The notes below the pieces were generated by a model. That model was not told the DNA's origin. It made no database searches and worked only from the letters and a program-made list of their open reading frames with translations. The position numbers and the translations under genes are program-made. From Blastomussa wellsi (lineage: Eukaryota > Cnidaria > Anthozoa > Scleractinia > Plerogyridae), in assembly GCA_947652115.1 (NCBI GenBank), contig OX393570.1, positions 12,220,615-12,284,614 on the forward strand: a stretch of DNA of 64,000 nucleotides, read 5' to 3'. Positions within the stretch are counted from its first letter, which is position 1, and every line of letters begins with the position of its first letter. This document shows positions 33,596 through 41,305 of the stretch, piece after piece.

Positions 33596-33748
33596 TTTTT
33601 GTATGGGGCGCCGTTTGTAAAAAAAATGATTTAGCTTTTGTCATTTTTTTCGTTATTTATTAAATAAAGTTTTCTGATATGATATCATACGCCAATGATT
33701 TGATATAATAAATGTTGATTTCAAATCATGTGTTTATGATTTGATATA

Positions 33749-34805
33749 TATAGATTACTTCATAGAAAGTGCGACGTACGGATTTTTATTCACGAGTTGC
33801 AAAACTTTGGAAAACGAACGAGTGAGCGCAGCGAACGAGTGAGTTTTCCAAAGTTTTGCGACGAGTGAATAATAATCCGTACAAAGCACTTTCTATGCTG
33901 TAATTTGTTTATTATATATAACGAGTACTCAACCATTGTAAACTTAAAGCGATTTTTCTAGTCTATAATTAAAGAGTTAAACGCAGCGCGAGGAAAACAA
34001 AGCTACCAATGCATTCTGATGGCTTTCCAAGCGAGATCTCTTTTAAATAGAAAAGAAAAATTACGGCGACGACAAGCTATCGTGAACAAGAACTTTATTT
34101 AAATAGCGGTATAAAACGCACTGTGTTAATACTTTTTAAAAGGAAAGCTTTTGCTATCGCATCGAGAAACGTCGCCATAAGTGAATCAACTACTGCGCGC
34201 AAATCAACTGGCGAATTTTTGAACAAAAGTTGTGATAACACAAGGAGTCGGTTCATTAAACAATAATTACGAAATCCATATTCAAAAGTGAAATATTTAC
34301 TTTACCCTGGTGTTCCCAAGAGTGCTTGAATTTTCTTAGAACGTCCACGGCTGCGTTGTATCAAAGCTACAATGAAAGTCTTTCATTTCTTGGCTTTCCC
34401 TTATCGACATTTAGTTTGTCTTCGCTCCGCCTGGAGAATGATTTTAGCATTTCCATATCATAACTGCGTTCTCAAGGTTTTGCTTGGCGTGTTTCTGATG
34501 GCTTTCCTTTCCATAAAGTTCTCAAAAGTACAAAATTTGTAGCCAAAACATAAACTGTCTTCGAGAGCTTGCAAACTTGCAGCGTGTTGTTTTTACAACC
34601 TCGTTGGAAACCATTTGAATTCCCGCGCTCTGATTGGTTAGGTCGTTCTACTCTTGATGCTGATTGGTTATATTTTTCACATGTGAAGAAAGCTATACGC
34701 GAAGCTGATTGGACGTATCGCTTTTCTCACATGTGAAAATATAGCAGATATAGAATTCTATCTGCAAGGTTTATTACCTAAAATTGTCGCTATATATATA
34801 ATAAA
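33749..34805. mobile_element. 1.06-kb insertion in the left repeat, with long hairpin
   Basis: Absent from the right repeat, where gatttgatata runs directly into ataaattattattt. It starts with a hairpin of about 55-bp arms (33764-33897; cttcatagaaagtgc...ttttccaaagttttgc). It contains two ctgattggt motifs (34631 and 34661 areas) and ends near tatatata. Target bases are TA-rich and ambiguous. No ORF. Confidence 0.75.
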
Positions 34806-35280
34806 ATAAATTATTATTTAAAATCATGCGTTTATGATTTGATATAATAAATTCTGATTTCAAATCATACCTTTATGATTTGATATAATAAATTATTTTT
34901 TCAAATCATACCTTTATGATTTGATATAATAAATATTGATTTCAAATCATAAGTTTATGATTTGATATAATAAATCCTGATTTCAAATCATAAGTTTATG
35001 ATTTGATATAATAAATCCTGATTTCAAATCATTCGTTTATGATTTGATATAGTAAATCCTGATTTCAAATCATAAGTTTACGATTTCATACAATAAGTTC
35101 TGATTTTAAATCATAAGTTTATGATTTGATATAATAAATCCTGATTTCAAATCATAAGTATATGATTTCATATAATGAAAATCATTATTTGATATCAGTA
35201 AAACCATGATTTAACTTAATAAGTAATAAGTAACCGCGTGACTTGGCACGTGGGTTATTAGCGCGGGAATAATCGCAAAG

Positions 35281-35418
35281 ATGGCGACACAACCGGATGA
35301 GCTATCGAGGTCAATCGCTTCTGCGGTCTCTAGAGCCGTAGAAAGGGCGGTTGACGAAGCTTTGGCATCTCTTCCGAGCCTTCCTGGCAATTCAGGTTTT
35401 GCTCCTGCGACACAAGAG
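35281..35418 (+). CDS. HECT-type gene, exon 1 (shared TIR exon)
   Basis: ATG plus 46 codons (MATQPDELSRSIASAVSRAV and on to PATQE), ending at a consensus donor gag|gtatgt. The sequence is an Ala/Arg/Glu-rich amphipathic helix. The identical exon is present in reverse at 40410-40547 in the other terminal repeat. Downstream + strand exons at 35764, 35852, 36291 and 36849 join in phase. The predicted product is 213 residues. It probably shares promoter and 5' UTR with the transposase gene, because both lie within the repeats. Confidence 0.75.
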
Positions 35419-35763
35419 GTATGTAACATTGATGTATCACTGCTAAAGCATCCCAGTCGCTGCCGGGGTGATGACCTGTGTGTCGATGTGATTAACAAAA
35501 ACATCATTATTGATGTCTTCCAAGCGCCTCATCTATTTCTTACATGTTGCACTGCATCATTAGTTAAGGGGATTGCATGTTAAGCGGAAAGCTATGACTA
35601 TATTTACAAGGGAAAGAGGACTTTTGGACCTTTCGCTTGTCTGGCGCATTGCGTGACACATGCGGCTTAGTTTTAGATGTGTTTGCTTCCTTTTATTTGT
35701 TATGTCCTTTTAGTAGCCATACTAAAATAACATACAGCTAATGATTGTTTCTATTTCACAAAG

Positions 35764-35806
35764 TTAGGCGATAAAAGACATTTAGAACTGGATGATTTAG
35801 CACAAG
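35764..35806 (+). CDS. HECT-type gene, exon 2 (predicted)
   Basis: 43 bp between a pyrimidine-rich ctatttcacaaag acceptor and a caag|gtaata donor. It encodes LGDKRHLELDDLAQ from phase 0 and leaves phase 1. It spans the point where left/right repeat identity ends. Confidence 0.55.
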
Positions 35807-35851
35807 GTAATAAGTTGTCTTTAATTACGATTATTTTTCATGGTTTTGAAG

Positions 35852-35875
35852 AGAAGGTGGAATCATTAGAGTCAG
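35852..35875 (+). CDS. HECT-type gene, microexon 3 (predicted)
   Basis: 24 bp (agaaggtggaatcattagag...) between ttttgaag and gtaaat, phase 1 in and out. It encodes EKVESLES. Skipping it would also keep the frame, so it may be optional. Confidence 0.45.
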
Positions 35876-36290
35876 GTAAATGACACTGATACAATGAACA
35901 GTCAACAAGGTGCGCCAAGTTAAGTATCGCTCACAGAAAACCAGGATGAGAAATAAAAATATTGAAAAATAGATAACAGCAAGAAGTTCTCTACATTTCA
36001 TGCTAGGTAAGCTCTACAAGCTGCCGCCATTAGGAAAGCCGCCCCACCCCTTAAAAAACACACAAGGTAAAATAATGGAGGGGTTTAAATGTTTTTGAAA
36101 AATCGGACAGATGTATTTTTAGGTCAAGAACCAGGAATAGTGTGTGCAATTATGTTCTGTCGGAGAATAAACAATAATGGGTGAACCAATCAGATGCGCA
36201 TATTTCCAGTAGAAGATGCTGGGTGTCTACTAATGATAGTTTGGTAAAATTTTAAGGTTTGAGATTTAGTAAATTATTGTTATCTCCTAG

Positions 36291-36497
36291 GCATGGAGGA
36301 AGTTTCACTTATTAGCTTCTTGAGAAGAAGCCCATCCCTTATGAAGGTTGTATTCCCCTGTGAGTCAGATAAGGTCATCCTTGCAGAAGAAATTAAAGAG
36401 TTGATGACCTTTGAAGACAGAAGGGACAGTGAGCAGAATGAAAGAACTGCACGTTTTTATGAATTCTATACTGATGAACTGGAAGCAGGAGTGAAAG
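36291..36497 (+). CDS. HECT-type gene, exon 4
   Basis: 207 bp after ttgttatctcctag, ending aaag|gttaga, phase 1 to 1. It encodes MEEVSLISFLRRSPSLMKVV and then FPCESDKVILAEEIKELMTF, ending near YEFYTDELEAGV. Its position and hydrophobic/charged pattern fit the region before the C-lobe of HECT ubiquitin ligases. I cannot assign it firmly. Confidence 0.6.
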
Positions 36498-36848
36498 GTT
36501 AGATAGATATCAAAACAATTTATCAGGTAATGTACTTTTCCTACACGCATCTCAACGTTATCCTGAGACACAAATACTTGCTTTTCTTCAATTTGCTATA
36601 ACTAAGTACCATTGCCAAAATTTATTGCTTAGTACAGTAATGAATCCAATTTTGAAATTTATTACGTTTCGTAGTTTTTCAGTTATTATATGTTACAGTT
36701 GGTTTTTAAAATGAAATATACAAAAACCCGGCTGTATTAAATTACATTTATGCCAAACCCAATCCATTCCCCCTTAGCCCATCTCAAACTTCAAACTGAA
36801 AATAAGAAATCCTTAACAAATGAACTTTCCTTCTTACTTTTCTTCAAG

Positions 36849-37078
36849 GTGGACCTCAGATGGTGGATCTGGTAAACTTTTGGACTGGTGCAAGTACACT
36901 CCCAACTGGAAATGATTCACTACTAGTTAAATTTGATGCTGGGTCAAGCACATTGCCCCTAGCTGAAACTTGTTTCAGAACTATTGTACTTCCAACAGAG
37001 CACTCAACTTACGATGAATTTAGAAAAAACATGGACATAGCTTTAAAGTTTGGATCAAAAGGATTCAGTTTTACATGA
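36849..37078 (+). CDS. HECT-type gene, exon 5: HECT C-lobe with catalytic Cys
   Basis: 230 bp after cttttcttcaag, entering in phase 1 and ending in TGA at 37076-37078. It encodes VDLVNFWTGASTLPTGNDSL and LVKFDAGSSTLPLAETCFRT followed by IVLPTEHSTYDEFRKNMDIA. This is the C-lobe signature of HECT E3 ubiquitin ligases: W-x-G-x-x-x-LP, then LP-x-A-x-T-C-F with the ubiquitin-accepting Cys, then LP-x-x-x-S/T-Y. Only the C-lobe is encoded; the E2-binding N-lobe is missing or diverged. In the cell such a protein might modify transposase or host factors. That role is inference. Confidence 0.8.
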
Positions 37079-37801
37079 GTCCTGATATTCAAGGTCAAAA
37101 TTAATGATAGATTACTAAGTCTAAAATTTGATGTTTAAAAGGTTATTAAACCCGTTGATACATATTGCAATATTTAATCTTTGTTCCAGTTCAGTATTTA
37201 TACTCTTTTGACAATGAATTTGTCACTCAGAGCAAGTAATTTGAAGAGACAATAATTGAGCAATGTTATACGGAGTACATGAAAAATAGCGATGATAGTT
37301 ACAAGTACTACACATTGCCAGTGATACTATTTTTCGTTCAAGTAAAATTCGCCACACAAATAGTCTCCTTTGTAGCCGCTATTTAGTTGTTAAATTCTTG
37401 ACGTTACTCTCCAAAATGTTTTGAGGATTGTCACGTGATAAGCTGGAATACGGCTAAGCGACGGAATAATGTCCGCGATTTGCATAGCTTTACTTATAAT
37501 AACTGTAACGTTCACAAGGCAATATCCTTATTTGAAAATGTTAGGTTTCAGTTCTCTAATAACAGAACATTCCAGAAAATCCACGTAGACGCATATTAAT
37601 GGTCACAAGGTATATAATAAATTTGAATTAAAGTTTAAATCAGTGCTGGTCTCGTCAGTAGCAAAAGTCGCAAACGTCTACTTAATAGATAACTTATGGA
37701 CTACAACAAAACTCCCGTGTCACTTCTTTACTTATACATGGCACATAAACAAGGTATGAATCACCAACGGTGTCTTTAAAGGCGTTACGCTAGGACACAG
37801 C

Positions 37802-38948
37802 TCAATTCTGTTGTAGGCGTATCCCGACGAAACGCAGTGTTTGAATGTACAATTCTTTTCCATTACTGGTGGACAGTGGATCTATAGTATTCCGCAGAAC
37901 CACTGTATCCGCTTCAGTTAAAGGATTTCGTGTCTCGGGAACTTGGACATGAGGTAAATCTGGGGACATCAAATCATTAACACTGACTCCTCGCCATGTG
38001 ACGTCCTCGGGAAATCCCCCATGGAACGCGGTGAGGGGTAGGTTAAGATAAAACATCTGAGCAGGAGTTTGATTGTTTTCTGTGGAAACGGCGTGGTTGT
38101 TATGTGCTGCGATGAATTCGCTGATACTCCTGTTTATCCTTGGAAGATATACGTAATGCAAACAAAAAAGGTCCGTTTCATTAAGCGGATCGAGAAGCCC
38201 CTCACTTTCTAGTTGATAGAACTCTTCTCTAAAAACAGACAATTCTTGCTCATTGGCAGCTCGGTTGTGGCGTTCAACGCGCTGGTTGTGAACCGAGCTT
38301 CCTACTATCACAGACCTTGCCTCTTCTCCCCAGGCTTGAATCATATCACGCCATACGTCCACATTTTCTCCGCCGTGGTCCGTTCTCACACGAAAGGGAC
38401 GTCCATACTTTCGCACAGCCTGATGATACAATTGAAGCACAGTGCTTGCTCTGTTGCGGTTCGTGGAGCAGGCACCAAAAACTACCAGCCGGCTATATCC
38501 GTCAACGGCATGATGCAACACCATTCGCCATCGTACCAGCTTGTGGTTTCCGTCGATGTGCCACACATAATTCGGGCATGGCACCGAGTAAACGCGTCTT
38601 CTTATAGGAGGATGAAAACGTGACATGGGACCGTTTGGGTTGTTGTGGTGTATAGCACTCCTAACTCTTGATCTTTGAACGTGGAAACCGCGAGCCCTCA
38701 GATGACCCATAACCATCGATTCTCCAGCATTCGGATGGCTTCTCGAAATGACTTCGACTGCTTGACGAATCTCAGCCTCACTGGCATCTGAAAACCGCTT
38801 GTAGTTAATGTTGTAATCGCGGATAGCTTTATATACGGTAGGTCTAGAGACATGTAAAGCACTGGCAATGTCTGATAGAGGAATTTTTAATTTTAAGAAT
38901 GCTTCCAACTGCTCTTTGCCGATGGCTGTTCTTGGCCTCCCTTTGGAT
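37802..38948 (-). CDS. IS3EU-like transposase, exon 3 (catalytic)
   Basis: The main exon of a predicted 447-residue transposase on the minus strand. It opens after an acceptor (ttaacttcttgcag at 38949) with SKGRPRTAIGKEQLEAFLKL. A helix-turn-helix follows (PLSDIASALHVSRPTVYKAI), then a linker, then an integrase-type core. The core has Asp in YVWHIDGN, Asp in RVRTDHGGENV and Glu in HNQRVERHNR. Thirty-four residues separate the second Asp from the Glu (DD34E). The frame is open from acceptor to stop at 37802. It also continues open upstream to 39130, but the in-phase exons at 39895 and 40410 give a better start. It would bind the terminal repeats and cut and join DNA in the nucleus. Confidence 0.88.
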
Positions 38949-39894
38949 CTGCAAGAAGTTAACGTAATGTCAGTAGAACCCCCATTGATGTATACCTCAA
39001 GTACTCCTCGGCCGACCATTTCTGGCCTAAGACGGGTACAGGATACATATGACGAGGGTGGGGTGGGAAAGGGAAGGGCAAGAAAGGAGATCTGACACCA
39101 AAGAAATGTCGATTTTTTTACAACTTGCAAGGCGAACAGTTCATGTGCTAGTCAACGATTTTTAAGGGCCCCTCCCTTAGGCCCTGTTCACAAGAGGTAG
39201 GGCTAACCCTAGTGCTAGGTTTACCCTAGCAAGAGGGTTACCCTAGCACTCCCACGCTTCTTTTTTGTGACAGACGTGTTTACAAGGTAGGTAGGGTTAC
39301 CCTTGCGCTAGGGTAGCCTTAGGTGAGCGCTAGAAATACCGGTAAAACAAACGAATTGTGATTTTAGAAACATCGTATAAGTGAACAGTTTGTTTCAGTT
39401 TTGCTTTGGATAAAAAAATTCAAATAACAGGTTTTTAATTTGGGACAAAATTTTCGCAATAATTTTGTCGGGGAAGTGTTTATAGTTTTGCCGTCAAATT
39501 CATGCAAAACTAAAAAAAAATAACTAGGTTGTGTGTCTGGAATTCTAAGTGAGCTTAGAAAATGAAATGATTTGAGTGGAACCAAAACTACGTAATTTAG
39601 GTGAAAATAAGTTCTGGCAATAAAATCATTACGGATTGCGTGTTTTATTTACCAGGTTAACTGAAGCGTAACGAGCCAGATATCTGAAAGATTGCTTGTA
39701 AACGCGGACTATCTTTTACCCTCTTGCGGGGGAAATCCTAGAACTATGATTACCCTACCTGCTTGTAAAAAGGGCCTTTGATTGAAGCAACTGTTTTTTT
39801 AGAGAATGTTAGACTACATTCAAGTTTAGAGACATATAAGAAAGGCTTATTAGGATCAAGGAACACTAACATTAAATTTGAAATACACACTTAC

Positions 39895-39953
39895 CTTGGC
39901 ATTTGGTCCTCGTCATTTTCCACATCTTGCGAAGTTCTTACCGCTTCTTCTTG
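39895..39953 (-). CDS. IS3EU-like transposase, exon 2 (predicted)
   Basis: 59 bp on the minus strand between acceptor catctgtcattcag and donor ccaag|gtaagt. It encodes QEEAVRTSQDVENDEDQMP plus two bases of an Arg codon. The Arg is completed by the first base of exon 3, giving R-SKGRPRT. The phases of all three exons agree. Confidence 0.7.
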
Positions 39954-40033
39954 CTGAATGACAGATGAATTATCAAATTCATTCAATTAATTTTTCTACT
40001 ATGTAAATTTTTCCACCAGTCGGACAGGTAAAT

Positions 40034-41173
40034 CAGTTTCTCGCCTAACTTTGTGAAATAAAAACAATCATTCACTGTATGTCATTTTAGTATGGCTACC
40101 AAAAGGACATAAAAAAAGGAAGCAAACACATCTAATTTAACTAACATAGTATTAACCATGAGCCGCATGTGTCACGCAATGCGCCAGACAAGCGAAAGGT
40201 CCAAAAGTCCTCTTTCCCTTGTAAATATAGTCATAGCTTTCCGCTTAACATGCAATCCCCTTAACTAATGATGCAGTGCAACATGTAAGAAATAGATGAG
40301 GCGCTTGGAAGACATCAATAATGATGTTTTTGTTAATCACATCGACACACAGGTCATCACCCCGGCAGCGACTGGGATGCTTTAGCAGTGATACATCAAT
40401 GTTACATACCTCTTGTGTCGCAGGAGCAAAACCTGAATTGCCAGGAAGGCTCGGAAGAGATGCCAAAGCTTCGTCAACCGCCCTTTCTACGGCTCTAGAG
40501 ACCGCAGAAGCGATTGACCTCGATAGCTCATCCGGTTGTGTCGCCATCTTTGCGATTATTCCCGCGCTAATAACCCACGTGCCAAGTCACGCGGTTACTT
40601 ATTACTTATTAAGTTAAATCATGGTTTTACTGATATCAAATAATGATTTTCATTATATGAAATCATATACTTATGATTTGAAATCAGGATTTATTATATC
40701 AAATCATAAACTTATGATTTAAAATCAGAACTTATTGTATGAAATCGTAAACTTATGATTTGAAATCAGGATTTACTATATCAAATCATAAACGAATGAT
40801 TTGAAATCAGGATTTATTATATCAAATCATAAACTTATGATTTGAAATCAGGATTTATTATATCAAATCATAAACTTATGATTTGAAATCAATATTTATT
40901 ATATCAAATCATAAAGGTATGATTTGAAAAAATAATTTATTATATCAAATCATAAAGGTATGATTTGAAATCAGAATTTATTATATCAAATCATAAACGC
41001 ATGATTTTAAATAATAATTTATTATATCAAATCATAAACACATGATTTGAAATCAACATTTATTATATCAAATCATTGGCGTATGATATCATATCAGAAA
41101 ACTTTATTTAATAAATAACGAAAAAAATGACAAAATAAAGCTAAATCATTTTTTTTACAAACGGCGCCCCATA
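40034..41173 (-). repeat. Right terminal inverted repeat
   Basis: About 1.14 kb, reverse-complementary to the left repeat. It contains the shared first exon (40410-40547) and about twelve 40-bp subterminal units (40617-41090). It is uninterrupted and shows the original repeat structure. Confidence 0.9.
40410..40547 (-). CDS. IS3EU-like transposase, exon 1 (shared TIR exon)
   Basis: ATG at 40547 and 46 codons identical to the + strand exon at 35281-35418, with the same gag|gtatgt donor. It joins in phase 0 to QEEAV at 39953. It supplies the transposase with an Ala/Glu-rich N-terminal helix, also present on the HECT protein, which could let the two proteins form mixed oligomers. Confidence 0.72.
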
Positions 41174-41305
41174 TTTTTGACCTACACCCAGCACCAGTGT
41201 TTTGCCTGCTGTAGCAAAAGAATTCACCATATAAGCATTTTTCTGGTTCATTGCATAGAATGTTTATCAACCTTCAGCCTGAGCCTCAGAAAGTTTGAAA
41301 AGTTA

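Follow-up and report, generated by a model that had tools for sequence, protein, structure and literature searches.

Can the terminal inverted repeats of a DNA transposon provide, besides the ends for transposition, one and the same protein-coding first exon to two different genes? The question is raised by a locus of Blastomussa wellsi on contig OX393570.1, where the initial annotation of a 64,000-nt stretch (the window, within which element positions are counted) had placed such an element between positions 33602 and 41173. We find that one transposon indeed spans this interval. Both of its ends (tips TATGGGGCGCC) are exact, and TTTTTG lies on either flank as a perfect 6-bp target site duplication, which bears out the bounds first given. 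The features of the element are collected in Table 1.

Table 1. Features of the window element, in order of position
Feature	Positions in window	Strand	Remarks
Target site duplication, left	33596..33601	.	TTTTTG, 6 bp
Left terminal inverted repeat, outer part	33602..33748	+	tip TATGGGGCGCCG
Insertion splitting the left repeat	33749..34795	.	~1.05 kb; 96% over 1064 nt to C1 stretch
Left repeat, inner part	34796..35763	+	41-bp tandem repeats, presumed promoter, exon 1, most of intron 1
Exon 1, left copy	35281..35418	+	46 codons, MATQPDELSRSIASAVSRAVERAVDEALASLPSLPGNSGFAPATQE
Truncated HECT exon at deletion scar	35764..35806	+	scar ~35770-35783; in phase with exon 1
HECT exon	36291..36497	+	
Last HECT exon, C-lobe	36849..37078	+	TCF cysteine motif
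Transposase exon 3	37802..38948	-	helix-turn-helix and DD34E core (rva_4)
Transposase exon 2	39895..39953	-	similar acidic stretch after exon 1 in P0125, by eye
Right terminal inverted repeat	40049..41173	-	
Exon 1, right copy	40410..40547	-	identical to left copy
Target site duplication, right	41174..41179	.	TTTTTG, 6 bp

Mutator superfamily elements carry a MURA-type transposase and generate 9-bp duplications; the rva_4 transposase and the 6-bp duplications found here place the element outside that superfamily. IS3EU/GingerRoot elements have TA..TA termini, usually 6-bp duplications and a DDD/E transposase according to the accessible sections of PMC10045372. The same three features are present in our element, namely TATGGGG..CCCCATA at 33602 and 41173, the 6-bp duplications TTTTTG (window) and CTTGCA (a second copy, C12), and a DDD/E core in the form of DD34E rva_4. 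Judged by its termini, duplication length and transposase core, the element is of the IS3EU/GingerRoot type. Unlike what is seen in the window element, neither a HECT gene nor a coding exon inside the repeats is mentioned for IS3EU/GingerRoot in those sections, and the word HECT has no occurrence in PMC10045372. An rva_4 search of the coral's own genome returned at least 150 places over the cut-off among 448 candidates, so IS3EU-like transposases look abundant there. The left repeat as a whole covers 33602-35763 and is broken by the insertion listed in Table 1, a relative of which is held by the C1 copy of the element. Both repeats contain arrays of a 41-bp unit (window ~34800-35180 and ~40650-41090), possible candidates for transposase binding sites.

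Each inverted repeat carries the same 46-codon exon (exon 1), as had been annotated: its left and right copies match at 138/138 nt, and both end gag|gtatgt. The right copy was said to join in phase to two minus-strand exons encoding a DD34E transposase, and we reach the same gene, with three exons that join in phase over 1344 nt (447 codons). Its catalytic residues are spaced D-57-D-34-E, and Pfam returns rva_4 (8.5e-67) and rve (4.4e-9) together with a helix-turn-helix. A Desmophyllum gene model of 213 amino acids, P0125, starts MSSRPDELSRSIASAVSRAVERAV and then runs into the C-terminal part of a transposase, being devoid of the helix-turn-helix and of the first part of the core. The predicted use of exon 1 by the transposase is well supported. 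A search of viral contigs for the transposase gave one pattern match and no relative.

On the opposite side, the left exon 1 and the plus-strand HECT exons are likewise open and in phase, over 678 nt in five exons. We dropped one of these, a 60-nt exon at 36007-36066, which is absent from the Oculina HECT protein P0121, and the reading is then 618 nt long; the open phase claimed at the outset holds, but the total of 642 nt does not. The HECT exons annotated in the window are present, and we take the TCF cysteine motif of the last one to be the catalytic site, but the gene to which they belong is a deletion remnant from which ∼3.9 kb has been lost. Two other copies of the element, C12 and C1, hold ∼3.9–4 kb of DNA that is missing from the window and joins at window 35770-35783. 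It is because C12 and C1 share this ∼4 kb of HECT DNA that we regard the window copy as the deleted one. The additional DNA encodes further HECT exons; a part of it that matches P0121 lies immediately before the window remnant, and the window 'exon 2' is the stump of an internal exon. With its HECT gene truncated, the window copy would not be expected to yield a functional HECT ligase. An intact HECT gene is present in none of the three family copies (window, C12, C1); in C12 two exons are fused by a deletion, and a frameshift follows.

When the exon 1 protein was compared with the coral's own genome (367.8 Mb), eight places were found, four of them complete: the two ends of the window copy and the two of the C12 copy. 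C12 has its own perfect duplication, CTTGCA, which differs from that of the window and thus marks an independent insertion. The initial annotation had proposed to look in other copies for the exon in both repeats. In C12 both exons are intact (46/46), but both ends are damaged in C1: this copy is rearranged, with an assembly gap inside, its left exon is intact through codon 33 and continues into unrelated sequence, and its right exon lacks the first codons, including the start, and contains a TAG. The exon region is also retained in a pair of diverged relatives, C5a and C5b, both on C5. The C5b exon again ends QE|gtatgt, with the donor kept, and its comparison with the window gives dN 0.16 and dS 0.97 over a small sample of 33 codons. 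We considered a common cause for the three copies that diverge after codon 33 and rejected it, as the C1 sequence is unrelated from there on and C5a and C5b merely diverge.

We propose that in this cut-and-paste transposon a DD34E transposase gene and a HECT-type gene converge, each being read inward from one repeat. The repeat would act as transposition end, promoter and 5′ leader, and would contain the whole first coding exon and most of intron 1. Exon 1 would at first have been the transposase N-terminus, and repeat extension together with conversion would have put a copy on the HECT end. Joined there by splicing, with the phase kept, to the HECT exon that follows, it would give both proteins the same starting helix, and conversion between the ends would keep the two starts identical. 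We infer that the repeats are active promoters, that the exons are spliced as described, that the copying went in this direction and that the shared helix has a role, perhaps in joint oligomerisation. We incline, by a modest degree, to accept this proposal as a whole, that is, the repeat as end, promoter and shared first exon, the copying of the exon to the HECT side, and conversion.

The left exon could instead be just a passenger, carried along as the repeats were homogenised; the repeat would give the HECT gene a promoter and an untranslated leader, with translation starting farther in. Such a reading, which we hold to be rather unlikely, agrees with a Met in HECT exon 3, a possible true start, and with the different N-terminus of the Oculina HECT protein P0121. 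It accords less well with the C12 copy. There, splicing of the exon 1 donor to an acceptor located where the repeat ends on its inner side would keep the phase and give the open frame ATRHFVREQEIE.., which runs into LPHVPGDDVVIPIPRG, found also in C1 exon 3. The openness of the C12 frame discriminates little, because downstream of this acceptor another frame, too, stays open for >75 codons and a nearer AG leads to a stop in phase. In C1 only this exon 2 frame is open over the 39 codons read, and the assembly gap covers the acceptor. A transcript spliced as predicted would, moreover, be expected to be read from the ATG of exon 1, contrary to the idea of an untranslated leader.

To follow the history of the repeats, we aligned the left and right repeats of the three copies (C1 left in part), starting at a position within the outer tip that they have in common. 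Apart from an indel of 1 nt at column 5, the first 870 columns, in which exon 1 occupies columns 487–624, are free of fixed left/right substitutions. Nine such substitutions fall in the last 120 columns, as does, in the window and C12 copies, a 20-nt indel that divides left from right; 18 further columns of the alignment vary otherwise. The contrast between the 870 and the 120 columns has a Fisher p of 4e-9, for a boundary picked after seeing the data. This pattern suggests an old duplication, the outer part of which would have been homogenised by conversion. Conversion of this kind would explain the left/right identity of exon 1 without any use, and this identity is no proof that the HECT gene employs the exon.

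The position of start codons in distant families bears on both readings. We analyzed 13 further loci around other transposases (L021-L033) and used the paired repeats of six (L022, L023, L026, L027, L028 and L031); L021, L024, L030, L032 and L033 have no usable paired repeats, the L025 repeat is diffuse, and L029 is a fragment resembling L026. No paired repeat was found in L034, a locus around a HECT relative of 53% identity. A transposase and a facing open reading frame on the opposite strand occur in L022, L023, L026, L027 and L028. The L027 repeats (443 nt, 99% identical) end just past ATGGCGGATCAG, which starts both the transposase reading frame (MADQLSCEELDDFL) and the one at the other end (MADQARQLQQ). 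In L023 both reading frames begin MQCA(K/Q)TQ within the repeats. Both start codons thus lie inside the repeats in two of the six further paired-repeat loci, L027 and L023, and the second-gene start found there speaks against an untranslated leader. The L026 repeats end shortly before both start codons and those of L022 earlier still, as the passenger reading would have it. L028 has ATGATGCACTGCGC in both repeats, with a transposase-side frame of only 10 codons, and for L031 we did not locate a second start. Counted by start-region matches rather than by reading each start codon, the L027-type start region recurs in pairs, one at either end, in three loci (one of these ends being covered only to the second codon) and elsewhere at single ends; the L023 type occurs at either end in five loci, with one partial match in addition. 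The window family goes furthest, sharing a whole exon rather than start codons alone.

HECT similarity in the second genes of these loci is uneven. L027 has a match of 1.3e-10 in a separate downstream reading frame on the second-gene strand, and L023 a weak one (0.014, below the cut-off), also in a separate reading frame; in L023, L031 and L021 the similarity is weak or below the cut-off. The L028 second gene resembles HECT by tblastn only (1.2e-14), and that of L022 has no Pfam match. The L028 second gene (L028:4552-6153, minus strand) shows a weak match to CUE (0.0013, below the cut-off).

The HECT gene of the family likely uses exon 1, as far as reading phase and splice sites can tell. The N-terminal segment that had been assigned to both proteins is supported differently on the two sides: for the transposase by phase and by the P0125 gene model, for the HECT protein by phase and the acceptor in C12 and relatives.

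Which of the two genes owned exon 1 first? It resembles the N-termini of Desmophyllum P0125 and of P0027 (0/2000 shuffles each scored as well) and the N-terminus of a Dendronephthya transposase, P0077 (8/2000), and is marginally similar to P0101, a fish record (49/2000). There is no significant likeness to P0119, P0106 or P0092 (162, 589 and 1995 of 2000 shuffles, respectively), nor to the N-terminus of Oculina P0121, the sole HECT N-terminus compared (882/2000). In a protein search with residues 1–48 as the region, none of 88 candidates was found at E ≤ 10. Because exon 1 resembles some transposase N-termini and is unlike P0121, the HECT gene probably gained the exon, by repeat extension; exon 1 would originally have been the transposase N-terminus, later copied to the HECT end. 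Copying in the other direction, from an original HECT N-terminus to the transposase end, would suit the extent of the repeat homology, which stops a few nucleotides from the HECT exon 2 acceptor but inside intron 1 on the transposase side; in view of the likeness to the Desmophyllum and Dendronephthya transposases and the unlikeness to the Oculina HECT protein, we consider it improbable. An artefact of assembly, in which one end had been falsely duplicated in inverted form, might be suspected from the difficulty of assembling long perfect inverted repeats and from the gap in the C1 copy, but it is hardly credible, as the flanks of the window and C12 copies differ, each with its own perfect 6-bp duplication, the same fixed sites separate left from right inner edges in both, and the layout is seen again in other families. 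The arrangement is real, and it recurs.

In more general terms, and tentatively, as something that may well prove otherwise, we suggest that IS3EU-type repeats could be gene-start cassettes kept identical by conversion, that the facing gene would thereby gain the transposase N-terminus, and that transposase and HECT protein may co-assemble via the helix. Such a cassette, present at both ends, would comprise a promoter and a start codon, and at its fullest an entire exon. Transposon ends would then carry protein-coding starts besides the signals for transposition and promoter function, and conversion between ends could graft the N-terminus of one protein onto another. This would be a simple route for a transposon to add a gene and to tie it to the transposase, and it predicts that a ubiquitin-ligase-like protein may bind the transposase through the shared helix.

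Parts of this layout have precedents. The accessible portion of PMC12730594 describes TET-bearing fungal IS3EU elements with an alpha-kinase second gene opposite the transposase, 6-bp duplications and TAYGG..CCRTA ends. They are like our element in the orientation of the second gene and in duplication length, and unlike it in having other second genes, with no shared start or exon described in that portion. MuDR of maize has two convergent genes with promoters inside the terminal inverted repeats, the promoters and transcription starts lying in or just inside the repeats (accessible parts of PMC3440606 and PMC3310237). The window element, too, has a convergent pair of genes that are read from the repeats inward, with promoters that are presumed here; the MuDR transposase is unrelated, and those parts describe no coding exon common to both proteins. 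Literature searches for IS3EU with HECT, or a transposon with a HECT domain, gave no match, and a search for a first exon within a terminal inverted repeat found no shared coding exon described in the accessible texts, most subscription papers and the Repbase entries lying outside the scope of both. The earlier statement that no element so arranged had been described accordingly needs narrowing: repeat promoters of convergent genes are known from MuDR, but a shared coding exon was not found described in these sources, and there is weak evidence that it is novel.

Compared with the order of the window, C12 shows three large gaps, one corresponding to the HECT DNA that the window lacks and two to insertions that interrupt or adjoin the transposase gene. 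The larger insertion, of 45 kb within the transposase gene (C12 ∼15449514-15494643), has tips CCCTTGTAGAAATTCAG, an apparent 2-bp duplication AT and several long open reading frames, including ones of 1223 and 2392 codons. The other, of 6.3 kb (C12 ∼15442684-15448963), lies at the 3′ end of the transposase gene and has AGCGAAGCGC tips, again with an apparent 2-bp duplication AT.
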